From Stackebrandtia albiflava (GTDB lineage Bacteria > Actinomycetota > Actinomycetes > Mycobacteriales > Micromonosporaceae), in the NCBI RefSeq assembly GCF_007994225.1, contig NZ_VLLL01000006.1, positions 744,001-808,000 on the forward strand: DNA of 64,000 nt. The letters run 5' to 3'. Position numbers and translations under genes: made by a program. The notes below the pieces were generated by a model. It ran no database searches, was not told the DNA's origin, and saw nothing but the letters and a program-made list of their open reading frames with translations. This document shows, in pieces, positions 32,881-40,775 of the stretch; positions within the stretch are counted from its first letter, which is position 1, and each line of letters starts with the position of its first letter.

Positions 32881-35283
32881 TCAGGGCGTGGCCCGGCCGG
32901 TCTTGAACTTGACCGGTGGCGGGCCGGGGTCGTCGTCGGGGCCGCCGGGGTGTTCCCGCTTGCCTCCCGACTTGGGCAGCGGGGTGGTCGGGTCCACGGC
33001 GGGTCGTTCCGGCCGCGCGATCACGGCGGTGGCCTCGGGGTCGATGACCGTGGTGGCGTCGTCGTCCCGGTCGGCCTTCGGTATGACGGTGGTGGCGTCG
33101 TCGTCCCGGTCGGCCTTCGGCATGACCGTGGTCGGTTCGGGCGCGTCGGCCACCGGTCCCGGCTCGGGCGTATCGCCGCCGGGTTCGGGATCGGAGCCCG
33201 GACTCCCGGCGGAACCGCCGCCGAACTCGGGCCAGCCGGATTCGTTGCGGCCGTCGGTGGGGGCGGCCAGTCGTTGCCCGACGTGCGCGTTGATCCGCTC
33301 CGAGATCTCCTCCGGCGTCTGGGAGGCGTCCACGACGAGGTAGCGGTTTGGGTCGGCGGCCGCGATGTCGCGGAACTTGTCGCGGACCTTCTCGTGGAAC
33401 TCCACGGACTCCTGTTCCAGTCGGTCGGCCTTGCCGCCCTCGGTGGCGCGGCGCAGCCCGGTGACGGGGTCGATGTCCAGCAGCACCACGAGGTCGGGTT
33501 TGAGGCCGTCGGTGGCCCAGTTGGACAGCCAGGCGACCTCGTCGTCGGGGAGTTGGCGTCCGCTGCCCTGGTAAGCCCGTGACGAGTCGATGTAGCGGTC
33601 GGAGACGACGACCGCGCCGCGTGACAGGGCGGGCCGCAGCACCTTGTCGACGTGTTGCGCCCGGTCGGCGGCGTACAGCAGCGCCTCGGCGCGTGGACTG
33701 GGGGCGCCGCCGGACTGCGGTTCCAGGACGAGCGACCGGATGCGGTTGCCCAGGTCGGTGGCGCCGGGTTCCCGGGTGAGCACGACCTCGTGCCCGCGCA
33801 CCCGGAGCCACGCGGCCAGTTTCACCGCCTGGGTGGACTTGCCGGAGCCCTCGCCGCCCTCGAACACGACGAACATGCCGCCCGCGGCGGTGCCCGGCAG
33901 CAGCGGCCGTCCCCGGATCGAGCCCCACAGGTCGGCCAGGACCGGGACGCCGGGTTTGTCGTCCATCTGCCGGAACGCCAGGACGCCCGCGAACACGCTC
34001 AACGCCGCCGCGACCAGCAGCAGCAGTCGGCTGAACGACAGGTCGATCGAGAACAGCCACAGATCGACCCGCCGGGCGGAACCGTAACCGGCTACCACGC
34101 CGGCGCCGGCGACGCTTCCCATGAGCACGACCCGCGCACCGGTGTTGATGAACGCGAAGATGCGGCCGCGTACCGCGTCGTCGACCTCCCGGCCGAGGAG
34201 GGTGATGCCGGCCAGGAAGGCCATGCCCGCGCCGGTGCCGACGATGAGGGTGCCCAGCACGGCGATCCACAGCAGCGGGGCGATCGCGTTGAGCAGCAGG
34301 CCGATGCCCGCCAGCACGATGCTCATTCCGAACCACCGGCGGCGGGACAGGTCGCGCACCGCGATCGGGCCGACGACGAGGCCGATGCCGAGGCCGATGA
34401 AGATGGTCGCGAAAAGCACCGTGAACGTCGCGCCGCCGCCGCCCAGCGAGCCGGCGTAGAACGGGCCGGTGCCGATGACGACGCCCGCGCCCCCGAACGC
34501 GCCCATGATGCCGAAGACCAGGCCGCGGATGGTGTGGTTACGTCCGACGTAGCGCCAGCCCTCGGTGAACTGGCGGATCATGCCCTGGCTCTCGCCCTTG
34601 TTGACGGCGTCGGCGCCGCGCCGGATGCTGATCTCGGGGATGAAGAAGAAGACGGTGACCGAGGCGGTGAGCCAGGCGAGGGCGTTGATGTAGAGCCCGA
34701 TCGCGGAGGGTTGCGCCCAGTCGCCGAACCCGGCGAGCCATTCCGACACGGCGACCGATTCGAGGATCGACATGACGCCGGAGGCGACGACGGGCGCTAT
34801 CCCGTAGGTCGTGAGCAGGGAGAGCTGGTTGGCGGATTCGAGCCGGCTCTTCGGGAGCAGGTTGGGGACGGCCGCCTCCTTGGCGGGCATCCACATCATG
34901 CTGACGGCCTCGATCATGAACTGCGCGATGACGATCCAGGTGGCGGCGCGGATGCCGCCGCCCACCCACACCGCGACCAGCGGCATCGACAGGTAGAGCG
35001 CGAACCGCAGGAAGTCGCACACGGCCATGGTGATGCGGCGGTCGAACCGGTCGGCGAAGACGCCCGCGATGGGGCCGAGGACCAGTGAGGGCAGCAGCCG
35101 CATGATGATGACGGAGCTGAACGCGGCGCCCTGCGCGGTGGGGTTGTCGAACTGGGAGGCGGCGAACAGTGTGGCGGCCAGCAGGCCGAGCCAGTCGCCG
35201 GTGGCGGTCAGGCCGAGGACCGTCCATAGTCGCCGGAACGGACGGATCCGCAGAATCGCCTTGAGATCCGCCACGCCTGCCAT
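32881..35283 (-). CDS. tmk: MFS-like membrane domain fused to thymidylate kinase
   Basis: 800 residues from ATG 35283. Residues 1-430 form about twelve membrane helices with MFS loop GVFADRFDRR; residues 470-690 are thymidylate kinase with P-loop GGEGSGKST near 475, LTREPGATDLG and SDRYIDSSRAYQGSGR. dTMP kinase makes dTDP for DNA synthesis. Fusions to a permease are known in Streptomyces and relatives; the membrane part has no known substrate. The last 110 residues are disordered and hold near-repeats of TTVxPKADRDDDA. The upstream extension is not needed. Confidence 0.9.
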   Translation of the reverse strand: MAGVADLKAILRIRPFRRLWTVLGLTATGDWLGLLAATLFAASQFDNPTAQGAAFSSVIIMRLLPSLVLGPIAGVFADRFDRRITMAVCDFLRFALYLSMPLVAVWVGGGIRAATWIVIAQFMIEAVSMMWMPAKEAAVPNLLPKSRLESANQLSLLTTYGIAPVVASGVMSILESVAVSEWLAGFGDWAQPSAIGLYINALAWLTASVTVFFFIPEISIRRGADAVNKGESQGMIRQFTEGWRYVGRNHTIRGLVFGIMGAFGGAGVVIGTGPFYAGSLGGGGATFTVLFATIFIGLGIGLVVGPIAVRDLSRRRWFGMSIVLAGIGLLLNAIAPLLWIAVLGTLIVGTGAGMAFLAGITLLGREVDDAVRGRIFAFINTGARVVLMGSVAGAGVVAGYGSARRVDLWLFSIDLSFSRLLLLVAAALSVFAGVLAFRQMDDKPGVPVLADLWGSIRGRPLLPGTAAGGMFVVFEGGEGSGKSTQAVKLAAWLRVRGHEVVLTREPGATDLGNRIRSLVLEPQSGGAPSPRAEALLYAADRAQHVDKVLRPALSRGAVVVSDRYIDSSRAYQGSGRQLPDDEVAWLSNWATDGLKPDLVVLLDIDPVTGLRRATEGGKADRLEQESVEFHEKVRDKFRDIAAADPNRYLVVDASQTPEEISERINAHVGQRLAAPTDGRNESGWPEFGGGSAGSPGSDPEPGGDTPEPGPVADAPEPTTVMPKADRDDDATTVIPKADRDDDATTVIDPEATAVIARPERPAVDPTTPLPKSGGKREHPGGPDDDPGPPPVKFKTGRATP

Positions 35284-35382
35284 TGGCCGTCCGCCTTTTC
35301 GAAGTGTGAACCGTGTGCAACCTTCGACAGAGTATCGGCGTCGAACGTGGTGACCGGACACCCCTGTCGGTAACGGCGCTGC

Positions 35383-36703: not shown

Positions 36704-37873
36704 ATGAACCTGGACCGCTCCAGCCTGCGGGAACTCGCCGGACTCTCCGACCCACTCGGGGTCCTGTCCATCTACGTGACGGCCGACCCGACCGAGGAGG
36801 CCTCCGACCGGCCCGCCTGGGAGCTGCGGCTGCGGAACGCCCTGGACGAACTGTCGGCGGCGGCGAAGGACTCCGGGGACCGGGAGTTCGACCAGACGAT
36901 GCGCCGGAAGCTCCCCGCCCTGGAACCCGACCTGGACTGGTTGACCGCCGGCTCCACACCGGGACTCGGCCGGGCGCTGTTCGCGCCGCTGAGCGCCGAC
37001 GAGGTCTACCGGATCTCGGTGCAACAGGACCTCGGCGACCGCGTGGTGTGCGACGACACCGGTTACGTCCGGCCGCTGTTGAGCGCCTGGGCGGCCGGCG
37101 CGCCCGCCGGTGTCGCGGTCGCGGCCGGTGAGGGCCTCCGCATCCTGGAGGTCGAGTTCGGCCGTGGCGAGGAACTGGCCACCCTGGAGTACGACGACCC
37201 GTCCGGCGAGTGGCGGGAGATGCGCGGACCCGCCCGCAACAATCCGATGCGTTCGCAGCAGTCGTCGTCGCAGACCGACCTGTTCGACAGCAAACGCGCC
37301 GCCCACCTGAAGCGGTTCCTGGCGACCGGGCACGAGAGTCTGCGCCGGTTCGCGGAGGAACGCGACTGGGGGTTCCTGGTGCTGGCGGGCGAACCGCAGT
37401 TGCGTGACGCCGTGGTCGAACGCCTGGCATCGGGCTTCGGTCCGCAGATCGTCATCAGTACCCAGGTGCTCGGGCAGACGACGCCCGCGCAGGTCGCCGA
37501 CATGGTCGCCGACGACCTCGCCACCGCGCGGCGGGACCGCGACCTCGGCCTGGTGAACCGGATCGAGGAGACCAAGTTGTCGACGCGGGGCCTGGACCAG
37601 ACCCTCGCCGCGGTGCAGGACGGCCGGGCGGAACTCGTCGTGATGGACACCGAGGGGCAGTGGCACGGCCGCCGCACCCCGGACGGGTTGTTCGTCGGCG
37701 GTGACACTCTGCCGCCCGACACCGACCCGGACCGCATGCAGGACGAACCGGACCTGGGGGAACGGCTCATCGAGCTCGCCCTGCGCAACAGCACCGAGGT
37801 GGCCATGGTGCCGCCCGAGGTCGCGGAGCGGCTGAACGGTGCGGACGGGCTGGCGGCCGTCCTGCGTTGGTGA
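36704..37873 (+). CDS. baeRF/eRF1-like protein (putative ribosome-associated factor)
   Basis: 389 residues. The order of domains follows the bacterial archaeo-eukaryotic release factor (baeRF) proteins: an N-terminal LSIYVTADPTEE strand, a middle VLAGEPQLRDAVVERLASG region and a C-terminal L7Ae-like ELVVMDTEGQWHG. A polar linker rich in Gln/Ser (NNPMRSQQSSSQTD) sits about residues 180-195. Some relatives, e.g. Balon and Rv2629, bind hibernating ribosomes; that role here is inference. ATG 36704 follows AAGGCGGTGAC; GTG 36701 is equally possible. It precedes a DUF2795 gene by 49 bp. Confidence 0.75.
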   Translation: MNLDRSSLRELAGLSDPLGVLSIYVTADPTEEASDRPAWELRLRNALDELSAAAKDSGDREFDQTMRRKLPALEPDLDWLTAGSTPGLGRALFAPLSADEVYRISVQQDLGDRVVCDDTGYVRPLLSAWAAGAPAGVAVAAGEGLRILEVEFGRGEELATLEYDDPSGEWREMRGPARNNPMRSQQSSSQTDLFDSKRAAHLKRFLATGHESLRRFAEERDWGFLVLAGEPQLRDAVVERLASGFGPQIVISTQVLGQTTPAQVADMVADDLATARRDRDLGLVNRIEETKLSTRGLDQTLAAVQDGRAELVVMDTEGQWHGRRTPDGLFVGGDTLPPDTDPDRMQDEPDLGERLIELALRNSTEVAMVPPEVAERLNGADGLAAVLRW

Positions 37874-37922
37874 GTTTCCGTCGACCCGGCACCGGGTAGG
37901 CCGACAACAGGAGGTGGTAGTC

Positions 37923-38327
37923 GTGGTTCGACGCGACTCGCAACACGGAAAGGCGGTCGACGACTCGCTGGCCGCCAACGCCAAGGACCTCAGGCCCGGC
38001 GGGTCCTCCCGCAGTGGGCACTGGCGGGACGCCGAATCGCCGACCGAGGACGAGCCCGGTGGCGAGGCGTCACCGGGACGGGGCGGTACGCCGGTGGGCA
38101 TGACCGGCCTCGACGTCGAGGGACGGTTCGAGGTCGCCAGGTTCCTCGACACCGGGCGATTCCCCGCCGACGCCGACGAGATCCGCCGGATGGCGGCGGA
38201 CCACAACGCACCCGACAGCGTGCAGGGCGCGTTGCGTCGCCTGTTGCCGGACGGCCGGTACGAGACCGTCAACGAGGTGTGGGAGGCGATGGGCGGCGGC
38301 ACCGAGGTGCCGCGCACCGACATGTGA
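37923..38327 (+). CDS. DUF2795 domain protein
   Basis: 134 residues. The N-terminal 60 residues are polar and unstructured (GKAVDDSLAANAKDLRPGG); residues 65-125 match DUF2795, a small helical domain of unknown role (ADADEIRRMAADHNAPDSV, then LLPDGRYETVNEVWEA). The GTG at 37923 has AGGAGGT seven bases upstream. It probably shares the baeRF transcript. Its last two codons and stop lie inside the first 85-bp repeat. Confidence 0.82.
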   Translation: MVRRDSQHGKAVDDSLAANAKDLRPGGSSRSGHWRDAESPTEDEPGGEASPGRGGTPVGMTGLDVEGRFEVARFLDTGRFPADADEIRRMAADHNAPDSVQGALRRLLPDGRYETVNEVWEAMGGGTEVPRTDM

Positions 38328-38402
38328 CACGACGACTCGGCCCGGGTTCCGCGTGTGTGCGGGACCCGGGCCGAGTCGTGTCCGACGGTCAGCGCCCCGC
38401 CC
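38318..38402. repeat. 85-bp direct repeat, left copy, with terminator
   Basis: Identical base for base to 39130-39214. It starts in the second-last codon of the DUF2795 gene, contains a 21-bp hairpin (38332-38352 with 38359-38379, loop GTGTGT, one G-T pair) and ends with the 14 bases that, in the right copy, form the carboxylesterase 3' end. It therefore carries a spare piece of the downstream gene. Confidence 0.95.
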
Positions 38403-38573
38403 GGTGGACGCCGCCCCGCCCGGCGTGTCGAAGGGACGTGGATCCCGTGCCCGTGCGGCACCCGAGGCGACCCACGGCCGTGCGACGACGGGACCGGTGG
38501 CCGTTCGTGGAGCCCGCGTGTGTTCGTCGCGACGCCTGCGCGTGCCGTCCCCATTGCGGGCGCCGAAACGGCG

Positions 38574-38600
38574 CCATATGACGGTATGGTGATCGTATGG
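38574..38600 (+). promoter_or_regulatory. Promoter/operator of the RHH-MazF-like pair
   Basis: CCATA (38574-38578) with TATGG (38585-38589) and a third TATGG (38596-38600) repeat every 11 bases, as expected for a ribbon-helix-helix operator. TATGGT (38585-38590) can serve as -10, giving a leaderless or near-leaderless message from ATG 38597. Confidence 0.5.
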
Positions 38601-38836
38601 CGAAAGAGAAGGTCACCATCACACTCACCGAGGGCCTCGCCGCGCTGGTCGACCGCCGCGCCGGTGACAAGGGCATGAACCGGTCCCAGTACATCGAGGA
38701 TCTGATCTCCCGCGACGACGACGCCCGCGTGTGGGCCGAGTACGCCGAGAAGACCGTCCCCGCGCTGGGTCTGGACGAGTACGCCGCGACGCTCGCCGCG
38801 AGCATGAAGAGGAACTACGGTGCTTCGGACCGGTGA
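38597..38836 (+). CDS. Ribbon-helix-helix antitoxin
   Basis: 79 residues. KVTITLTEGLAALVDRRAGD plus the GMNRSQYIEDLI helix is a standard RHH/CopG fold; the C-terminal acidic tail (ARVWAEYAEKTVPALGLDEY) would bind the toxin. It overlaps the next gene by 17 bp. Upstream TATGG repeats suggest autoregulation. Confidence 0.82.
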   Translation: MAKEKVTITLTEGLAALVDRRAGDKGMNRSQYIEDLISRDDDARVWAEYAEKTVPALGLDEYAATLAASMKRNYGASDR

Positions 38837-39116
38837 CGTCTGCACCAATCTCGACAACCCCGCCCTGAGGCTGTGCGTCATCTCCAACCGGATGCACCTG
38901 GACACCGGTACCGGTCGGGTCATGGTCTGTCCGGTCGTTCCCGGCCGACCGCCACTGGACGAACTCGTCGGGATCGTGCCGTGTTCCGGCGACCGGGCGC
39001 TCCTGCCCGAGATGACCCACTGGCTTCCCACCGTGGTCCTGGAACCGACCGGCGAACGGGTCGGCTCCGGTGAGGTCGCCGAAGCGGTCCGGTTGCTGTA
39101 CAGCCTCATCCGGTGA
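38820..39116 (+). CDS. MazF/CcdB-like toxin (putative)
   Basis: 98 residues from GTG. LRTGDVCTNLDNP resembles the N-terminal RGDV strand of MazF/PemK and RLCVISNRMHLDTGTGRV the following hairpin. The overlap with an RHH gene supports a type II toxin. MazF members are mRNA interferases, CcdB members poison gyrase; the residues visible do not decide between them. Stop to right repeat distance is 13 bp. Confidence 0.65.
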   Translation: MLRTGDVCTNLDNPALRLCVISNRMHLDTGTGRVMVCPVVPGRPPLDELVGIVPCSGDRALLPEMTHWLPTVVLEPTGERVGSGEVAEAVRLLYSLIR

Positions 39117-39129
39117 CGGGTGGAACGGG

Positions 39130-39214
39130 CGACATGTGACACGACGACTCGGCCCGGGTTCCGCGTGTGTGCGGGACCCGGGCCGAGTCGTGTCCGACGG
39201 TCAGCGCCCCGCCC
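39130..39214. repeat. 85-bp direct repeat, right copy, with terminator
   Basis: Perfect copy of 38318-38402, 727 bp beyond it. Its right end includes the stop and last codons of the carboxylesterase gene; its left end repeats the CGACATGTGA tail of the DUF2795 gene, which is out of place here. Its hairpin (39144-39191) terminates both the toxin and the convergent esterase. Confidence 0.95.
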
Positions 39215-40775
39215 AGAACTCCAGGTGGTGGTACTCGGCGAAGCCGGACTCGCCGATGCCGTGGGCGTCGGCGGCCAGGCCCTGCGTGTAGGGCGCGGTC
39301 GCGGTGAAGTGGTCCCATCGCGGGGCGCCCCGGTGGTTGGGGTCGCCCGCGGCGGCGAACGCCGTCCAGTAGTCGATCATGTCTCGGGAGAGCCGCCGCT
39401 GTGACGCGTCGAGGTCTTCGAGCTGCGGGTACTCGAACAGGTAGGCCATCTCCGCCATGTGCCCGGTTCCCAGCGGGAAGCTCGGCCGGTCCATGCCGCG
39501 CCACCACGGCGACTCCGACTGGGTGATCTCGAACGCGTACACGGGGGTGTACTCCGACAGGGTCTCGGCGGTCCGCCAGGCGTGGCGCGACCAGTTCGCG
39601 TCGGTGAGGACGGCGGTCAACGCCTCACCGGGCGAGGCGTAGTCGGACGGCGGGTACTCCGCGAGCACGGCCGGGGCGTCGTCGCCGAAGGTGGCGGTGA
39701 CCTGGTCGAGGTAGCCCTGCGCGTCCAGCGGGGTACCGGTGGCGATCTCGATGCCGCCGAGCCGGCCCGACTCCTCGTGCCGGTTCGATCCGTACAGCAC
39801 CGGGACACGGTGGAACTCACCGGTCGAGAACGCCTCGGTCAGGTCGGTGGGCAGCACGTCTCCGTCCACGACGGGCCGGAAGTCGGAGTGCCCGCCACCG
39901 GCCGCCGCGATCAACGCCTCGGTGTCGGCCGCCCGCAGGCAGGTCGCGGGGTCGGCGCCGTCGCACTCGGCGGCGGTGGCGATGGCGACGCCGTTCGCCC
40001 GGGCCGTGTCGAGGTCCATGGTGGCGTCGGCCGAGCCGACACACCCGGCGCTGTGGACGATCGCCCGGTCGAACAGTCCGGCGGAGCCGGGGGAGGCGAG
40101 TTGGGCGCAGACGCTGTAACCGCCGCCGGACTGGCCCATGGCGGTGACGTTGCCCGCGTCGCCGCCGAACGCGGTCGCGTTGGCGCGCACCCATTCGAAG
40201 GCGGCACGCTGGTCGAGTAGGCCGAGGTTCGCGGTGTGGCCGGGCAGGTCGGGGTGTGACAGGAAGCCGAACACGCCGAGCCGGTAGTTGACCGTCACGA
40301 CCACGACGTCGCCCTGTTCGGCCAGGCGGGCGGCTCCGTAACCGGCGCCGTCGCCGTAGGTGAGGCTGCCGCCGTGGATCCACACGATCACCGGCAGGTC
40401 GTCACCGGGACGGGCGTCGGCGGGTGTGGTGACGTTCAGGTAGAGGCAGTCCTCGTCGGTGGGGGACATCGAGATGGGCAGGTCCGCCGGTTGTGGGCAC
40501 GCGGCGCCGGGGGTGGTGGCGTCCCGTTCGCCGTCCCAGTCGGCGGCCGGCGCGGGCGGTTCCCACCGGAGCGCGTCCACCGGTGGCGCGGCGTAGGGGA
40601 TGCCCTGGAAGGTGCGGACCTCGTCGGTCACCGTGCCGCGTAGGTCGCCCGTCGCGGTGTGGGCGACGGCGGGATCGGGCCGGTCGGCGGGTGCGGCGAC
40701 GATGGCGGCTCCGGCGGCGACGGTGAGGGCGACGCCGATTCCGGCGCCGATCAGGCCGCGTGCGAGAGGGGACAC
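39201..40775 (-). CDS. Secreted type-B carboxylesterase
   Basis: 524 residues. An N-terminal hydrophobic signal sequence (ARGLIGAGIGVALTVAAGAA) precedes the alpha/beta-hydrolase. FQGIPYAAPP, the oxyanion loop VWIHGGSLTYG, the nucleophile MGQSGGGYS and the His loop LGTGHMAEM mark a carboxylesterase/lipase type B. Substrate not deducible. It is divergent from a TetR gene with 132 bp between, holding a perfect 7-bp dyad. Confidence 0.9.
   Translation of the reverse strand: MSPLARGLIGAGIGVALTVAAGAAIVAAPADRPDPAVAHTATGDLRGTVTDEVRTFQGIPYAAPPVDALRWEPPAPAADWDGERDATTPGAACPQPADLPISMSPTDEDCLYLNVTTPADARPGDDLPVIVWIHGGSLTYGDGAGYGAARLAEQGDVVVVTVNYRLGVFGFLSHPDLPGHTANLGLLDQRAAFEWVRANATAFGGDAGNVTAMGQSGGGYSVCAQLASPGSAGLFDRAIVHSAGCVGSADATMDLDTARANGVAIATAAECDGADPATCLRAADTEALIAAAGGGHSDFRPVVDGDVLPTDLTEAFSTGEFHRVPVLYGSNRHEESGRLGGIEIATGTPLDAQGYLDQVTATFGDDAPAVLAEYPPSDYASPGEALTAVLTDANWSRHAWRTAETLSEYTPVYAFEITQSESPWWRGMDRPSFPLGTGHMAEMAYLFEYPQLEDLDASQRRLSRDMIDYWTAFAAAGDPNHRGAPRWDHFTATAPYTQGLAADAHGIGESGFAEYHHLEFWAGR

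Follow-up and report, generated by a model that had tools for sequence, protein, structure and literature searches.

How a toxin-antitoxin (TA) pair came to lie between two identical copies of a sequence that contains the ends of both neighbouring genes is the question raised by this locus. The locus is located in a 64,000-nucleotide stretch of the Stackebrandtia albiflava genome, which is termed the window, and is surrounded by unique sequence on both sides within a 1.69-Mb contig (C2). The features of the locus are summarized in Table 1.

Table 1. Features of the TA locus and its two neighbours (window coordinates)
Feature	Position	Strand	Remarks
DUF2795 gene, left neighbour	37839..38327	+	PF11387, 46.3 bits; last two codons and stop within left repeat
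Left 85-bp repeat copy	38318..38402		native DUF2795 end, hairpin, fossil of esterase end
Left-copy hairpin	38332..38379		arms and fold computed; putative shared bidirectional terminator
727-bp core between repeats	38403..39129		without terminal inverted repeats or recombinase frame
Candidate operator	38574..38589		CCATA-N6-TATGG, read by eye; precedes antitoxin gene; one change in G001; putative function
Ribbon-helix-helix (RHH) antitoxin, 79 aa	38597..38836	+	RHH_1
Toxin, 98 aa	38820..39116	+	family distantly MazF-like; overlaps antitoxin gene
Right 85-bp repeat copy	39130..39214		fossil of DUF2795 end, hairpin, native esterase end; starts 13 bp past toxin stop
Right-copy hairpin	39144..39191		putative terminator, also for the toxin transcript
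Carboxylesterase gene, convergent right neighbour	39201..40775	-	PF00135, 366 bits; last three codons and stop within right repeat

The two repeat copies are 100% identical across 85 bp, with a start-to-start distance of 812 bp; by chance, a window of this base composition would contain about 7e-37 exact 85-bp pairs. Each copy carries the last two codons and the stop codon of the DUF2795 gene (stop at 38325-38327 in the left copy), the stop codon and last three codons of the esterase gene (stop at 39201-39203 in the right copy) and, between them, a hairpin whose 21-base arms are 95% complementary and enclose a 6-base loop. The folding of the 85-bp block far exceeds that of shuffled sequences (z -5.4). 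These results confirm both the identity of the repeats and the make-up of each copy as given in a preliminary description of this DNA. The pair is the sole non-tandem direct repeat of at least 30 bp listed in the window, besides a 67% match elsewhere in the window to a tandem unit at 33044-33121, which represents the other repeat family of at least 30 bp. In the 5.55-Mb draft genome, the whole block is found at these two sites alone, apart from self-complementary matches of its hairpin. The tandem unit consists of two 39-bp copies in the tail of an 826-aa frame (32881-35361, minus strand), in which a membrane transporter and, behind it, a thymidylate-kinase-like part are recognized by eye; similar frames are present in three congeners (G001, G002 and G003).

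The body of the DUF2795 gene continues into the left copy, and its end, ATGTGAC, is also present in G001, so that the DUF2795 end is a fossil in the right copy and the esterase end is one in the left copy. The DUF2795 ends of G002, G003 and G004 differ from that of the window. When the flanks are joined by script, with one copy and the core removed, both proteins are unchanged and one hairpin is left between them. The gene order to the left of the DUF2795 gene is matched well in G001 and G002 and partially in G003 and G004, and the order to its right is matched in none of these four congeners. The convergent neighbour of the DUF2795 gene is ybjN, followed by mshA (names assigned by eye), in G001, G002 and G003, and is different in G004. 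In this genome ybjN is located on another contig (C4:59925-60392, L031), adjoining an ectoine hydroxylase gene read by eye. The DUF2795/ybjN-mshA order of the three congeners is interrupted in this genome at the repeat-bearing site (38318). The DUF2795-esterase neighbourhood is itself specific to the lineage, because the congeners do not have it and ybjN lies elsewhere here, and therefore none of the four congeners could show an empty site. A single-copy DUF2795-hairpin-esterase site is indeed not found in them, all four being without this neighbourhood. In two scans of the genome_contigs collection, relatives are found neither for the toxin nor for the DUF2795 gene; this collection seems to be without even G001, because G001 carries one query pattern unchanged and yet is absent from the results. 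Esterase homologues stop at varied points past a conserved FW, so that the last three codons are compatible both with an esterase present first and with an esterase tail taken from the repeat. The preliminary description had proposed that the two genes were convergent neighbours sharing one terminator and that their whole spacer was duplicated on insertion of the TA module. The two fossils and the intact joined flanks speak for this proposal, and the lack of an empty-site relative against it.

The core has the layout of a type II TA module, in which an RHH antitoxin gene overlaps a downstream toxin gene. The antitoxin matches RHH_1 (Pfam) with 21.5 bits, just over the cut-off of 20.5 bits, and stays below the cut-off of the NCBIfam MazE family (26.7 of 65 bits). 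The toxin of the window matches no Pfam family, so that it is not assigned to PemK_toxin (PF02452), a family that is touched by one of 11 aligned members of the toxin family with an E value of 0.03. No solved structure is matched in a toxin profile search, the structure model of the toxin is poor (mean pLDDT 43) and unusable for fold comparison, and no PADLOC family is found. No recombinase frame is present among the open reading frames of the core, and the best inverted match between its outer 60 bases at each end is 5 bp. The RHH antitoxin and the lack of a recombinase frame stand as first described, whereas the label "MazF/CcdB-like" for the toxin is weakly supported, by the E value of 0.03 in the one member. 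Without terminal inverted repeats, and with a duplication of 85 bp rather than a short one, the module is rejected as a transposon or MITE. The ends of attC sites carry the motifs RYYYAAC and GTTRRRY. Both strands of the 85-bp block are free of these motifs, and an integron cassette is rejected for this reason.

The toxin is encoded in six of 200 family genomes and, according to a six-member toxin profile, in 13 genomes out of 397 from the order. As this genome (G000) and G001 belong to each set, the total is 17 genomes. The TA family is also present on four mycobacterial plasmid records, one of them a partial match (L067 toxin query), indicating that donors exist; the analysis covered two of the four records more closely. 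No member of the toxin family is found in the phage collection or in viral_contigs, no DNA relative of the 727-bp core is found on plasmids, and plasmid searches with the toxins of G116 and G094 give no match. The preliminary description had suggested a search for the core at other terminators. The whole core is found nowhere else, but a counterpart of 542 bp, covering the operator and the TA genes (38571-39112), is present in G001 with 81% identity, where it is located at a tRNA gene rather than at the terminator of a protein gene. The first 168 bp of the core of the window are without counterpart in G001. The modules of the window and G001 are mutual nearest relatives, yet their sites and repeats differ. 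Distant TA homologues in two species, G085 and G098 (L104 and L105), have neighbourhoods that are about 80% alike over most of 11 kb and are without a bracketing repeat; these loci are apparently old and vertically inherited.

Members of the toxin family were compared for bracketing, scored as an ungapped direct repeat whose two copies flank the toxin gene. Nineteen loci were scored (17 genomic and two plasmid loci), with the flanks of L019, L021 and L067 shortened by contig ends. The score is at least 25 in four of the 19 loci (window, 85; G001, 56; G116, 37; G511, 25) and at least 37 in three, and the remaining 15 loci score 14 or less. When 1500 random intervals are scored in the same way, 15 reach 25 and none reaches 31, as against three of the 19 family loci. 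These intervals overlap, come from 227 kb mainly of the genus of the window, and leave out the TA neighbourhoods and a CRISPR array with repeats scoring 33-35, but include two non-TA repeats scoring 28 and 27 (L104 and L051). The excess of bracketing over this background is therefore a strong indication rather than an exact probability. The bracketing repeats differ by locus. In the window the repeat is the shared terminator and in G001 the 3' part of tRNA-Pro, whereas G116 has the end of a MerR-TipAS gene and G511 a weak 37-bp pair. The start-to-start distance is 1413-1513 bp in G001, and the other three loci have the small distances of 755, 812 (window) and 851 bp. It is this recurrence of bracketing within the family of the toxin, around unrelated repeats, that is new.

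The layout in G116 is like that of the window. The 43-bp repeat of G116 (41/43 identical) is the end of a MerR regulator gene, in which the TipAS domain extends almost to the C-terminus. This gene now ends with RI-stop, and the copy past the toxin gene, located just before a gene identified by eye as uppS, continues as RLGGQ-stop; a clean gene end is obtained when the body of the gene is joined to this downstream copy. L104 and L105 were considered as a sister empty site of G116 and were rejected, as they represent a different locus. Among the matches listed (five of nine), relatives of the MerR-TipAS gene on plasmids share less than 60% identity with it. The pair of G511 (33/37 identical) lies near a contig end and is without a clear gene.

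In G001, the left repeat consists of tRNA-Pro(tgg) and the sequence downstream of it, and the right repeat is a partial copy of its 3' part, with 31 bp identical and homology beyond. The insert contains about 0.7 kb besides the TA genes. A second partial copy of tRNA-Pro, followed by the same kind of sequence, is located about 69 kb from the intact tRNA-Pro in G004, suggesting that tRNA-Pro is probably an attachment site of an integrase. The two sites in G004 are L059 (G004:C1:5705009-5705098) and G004:C1:5774464-5774539, and the partial copy may mark the distal end of an integrated element. For G001, the reading as the remnant of an element is favoured over a long target duplication. A solitary CRISPR-type repeat is located about 200 bp upstream of the TA genes of G001 (L023:5701-5731), with one or two changes from 17 repeats at about G001:C1:927394-928489. 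The sequence that follows it has 9 nt in common with the TA promoter region, a length that is also reached in 40 of 300 shuffles. Its position before a TA pair recalls CRISPR-regulated TA modules. In the genome of the window, two adjacent partial Cas1 matches lie within one 570-aa open frame (G000:C4:95947-96564; L098, L099).

The arrangement in the window is best explained by a long target duplication that accompanied the insertion of a non-autonomous TA unit at gene 3' ends, a reading that is given an even chance of being correct. A TA unit of less than 0.8 kb would have inserted between two convergent genes separated by a short spacer. On either side of it this spacer would have been duplicated in full, as 85 bp that comprise the shared terminator and both gene ends. 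The likeliest step would be a break with staggered ends, or a pair of nicks, around the hairpin, with the terminator hairpin itself as a possible break site, followed by single-strand fill-in and by capture of a TA-bearing fragment through end joining. A Ku gene is present in the genome, so that capture at a break by end joining would be possible. After entry, the toxin would select against loss of the unit, although the empty site could be regained if the two repeats recombined. Both neighbours retain their own end and a terminator, and transcription of the toxin gene probably stops at the right copy as well. Under target duplication, insertions at gene ends are also those that selection would tolerate. 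It is the like pattern at other gene 3' ends in some members of the family that leads to this reading. Against it, an empty site is seen in none of the genomes examined, 15 of the 19 loci are without such a repeat, the repeat of G001 looks like an integrase attachment site, and the pair of G511 is weak with an unclear gene context.

The mechanism is unproven, and two readings remain, target duplication and a decayed or trans-mobilised integrative element, the latter being a serious rival although it is considered somewhat unlikely for the window. The repeats would then be attL and attR of an element of the tyrosine-recombinase type, with a gene 3' end and terminator as attB, and the TA pair would be the cargo left behind, the integrase being lost or supplied in trans. 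Gene 3' ends and the 3' halves of tRNA genes are the classical targets of tyrosine recombinases. The repeat regenerates a gene 3' end, that of DUF2795 in the window and that of tRNA-Pro in G001, where the TA genes lie between tRNA-Pro and its partial copy, and the second partial copy in G004 is consistent with the same reading. Five tyrosine-recombinase matches in the genome of the window (four on C1 and one on C6) could act in trans. However, none of the five is located on contig C2, no integrase frame is present between the repeats, and three of the four inserts are near TA size. In addition, the 85-bp block extends into both neighbouring genes, and the whole block is not found in the other 199 family genomes searched. 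The small inserts, the reach of the block into both neighbours and the contig free of tyrosine-recombinase matches argue for target duplication.

Alternatively, one homologous crossover may have brought in a donor molecule in which the TA pair and the same terminator block were already joined, so that their junction would first have formed elsewhere. The perfect identity of the copies would agree with this, and an 812-bp circular unit, or a larger circle that was later trimmed, would yield the layout. Nevertheless, this route is judged improbable, as the whole block is found nowhere else in this genome or in the other 199, and it merely shifts the first duplication to another strain. Spread of the terminator as a mobile sequence is rejected, as among the family genomes searched no match to the whole block is found outside this genome and the other matches are short or GC-rich, the longest being 86 bp at 74% (G158). 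A search with the block plus 198 bp of right flank, in which three candidates are scored per genome, matches somewhere in 50 of the 200 family genomes, that of the window included. That the assembler made the second copy is hardly credible: the genome is a 13-contig draft known here from its assembly alone, but the repeat lies inside a long contig between unique sequences, and two related TA loci have imperfect repeats (41/43 and 33/37), which are not expected from an assembler.

By size and gene order, the TA family presumably resembles Rv0298-Rv0299 of Mycobacterium tuberculosis. In an excerpt of PMC2781298, this pair is listed among functional TA systems and in an inferred genomic island, with Rv0299 distantly related to MazF; an excerpt of PMC5175181 gives Rv0299 as without effect on E. 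coli colony formation. An antitoxin gene followed by a gene for a toxin distantly related to MazF is common to both. Insertion with long target duplication is described for restriction-modification genes in Helicobacter (Nobusato et al. 2000, as cited in excerpts of PMC1643837, PMC3031569 and PMC3874152), with duplications of the order of 100 bp (excerpt of PMC3874152). In the excerpts of PMC1643837, PMC3031569, PMC2654758 and PMC3874152, the term is tied to restriction-modification genes alone, and among the titles and abstract openings listed in a literature search none reports a TA pair with a long target duplication. As far as those excerpts go, the locus of the window shares with these cases an addiction-type gene set and a long direct duplication of about 100 bp (85 bp at 100% here). 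It differs from them in its insert of RHH antitoxin and toxin, its actinobacterial host, its target, a shared terminator, and the lack of an empty site among the genomes examined. TA pairs are regarded as highly mobile, and the ccdO157-type chromosomal islets likewise consist of a TA pair alone, but the excerpt of PMC2654758 in which both points appear describes no long target duplication around the TA pair. Integrative elements at tRNA sites are similar in that the 3' end of a gene is rebuilt by their direct repeats, as at the tRNA-Pro of G001, whereas the modules described here are small, are without an integrase between the repeats and are located at the ends of protein genes in the window and G116.

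Many TA pairs are located in chromosomes without a visible mobile element, and their arrival is rarely traceable. It is a tentative and rather doubtful generalization that the whole TA family represents a minimal mobile unit, that is, modules of less than 1 kb that repeatedly enter at gene 3' ends or terminators, duplicate tens of base pairs, have no recombinase of their own and are kept by addiction. A family in which three to four of 19 loci still show the duplicated target would provide footprints that are testable across close strains. TA pairs would then join restriction-modification genes among the addiction units whose entry is accompanied by long target duplications. These results suggest that such TA pairs may enter genomes at the ends of genes, duplicating the spot at which they land.
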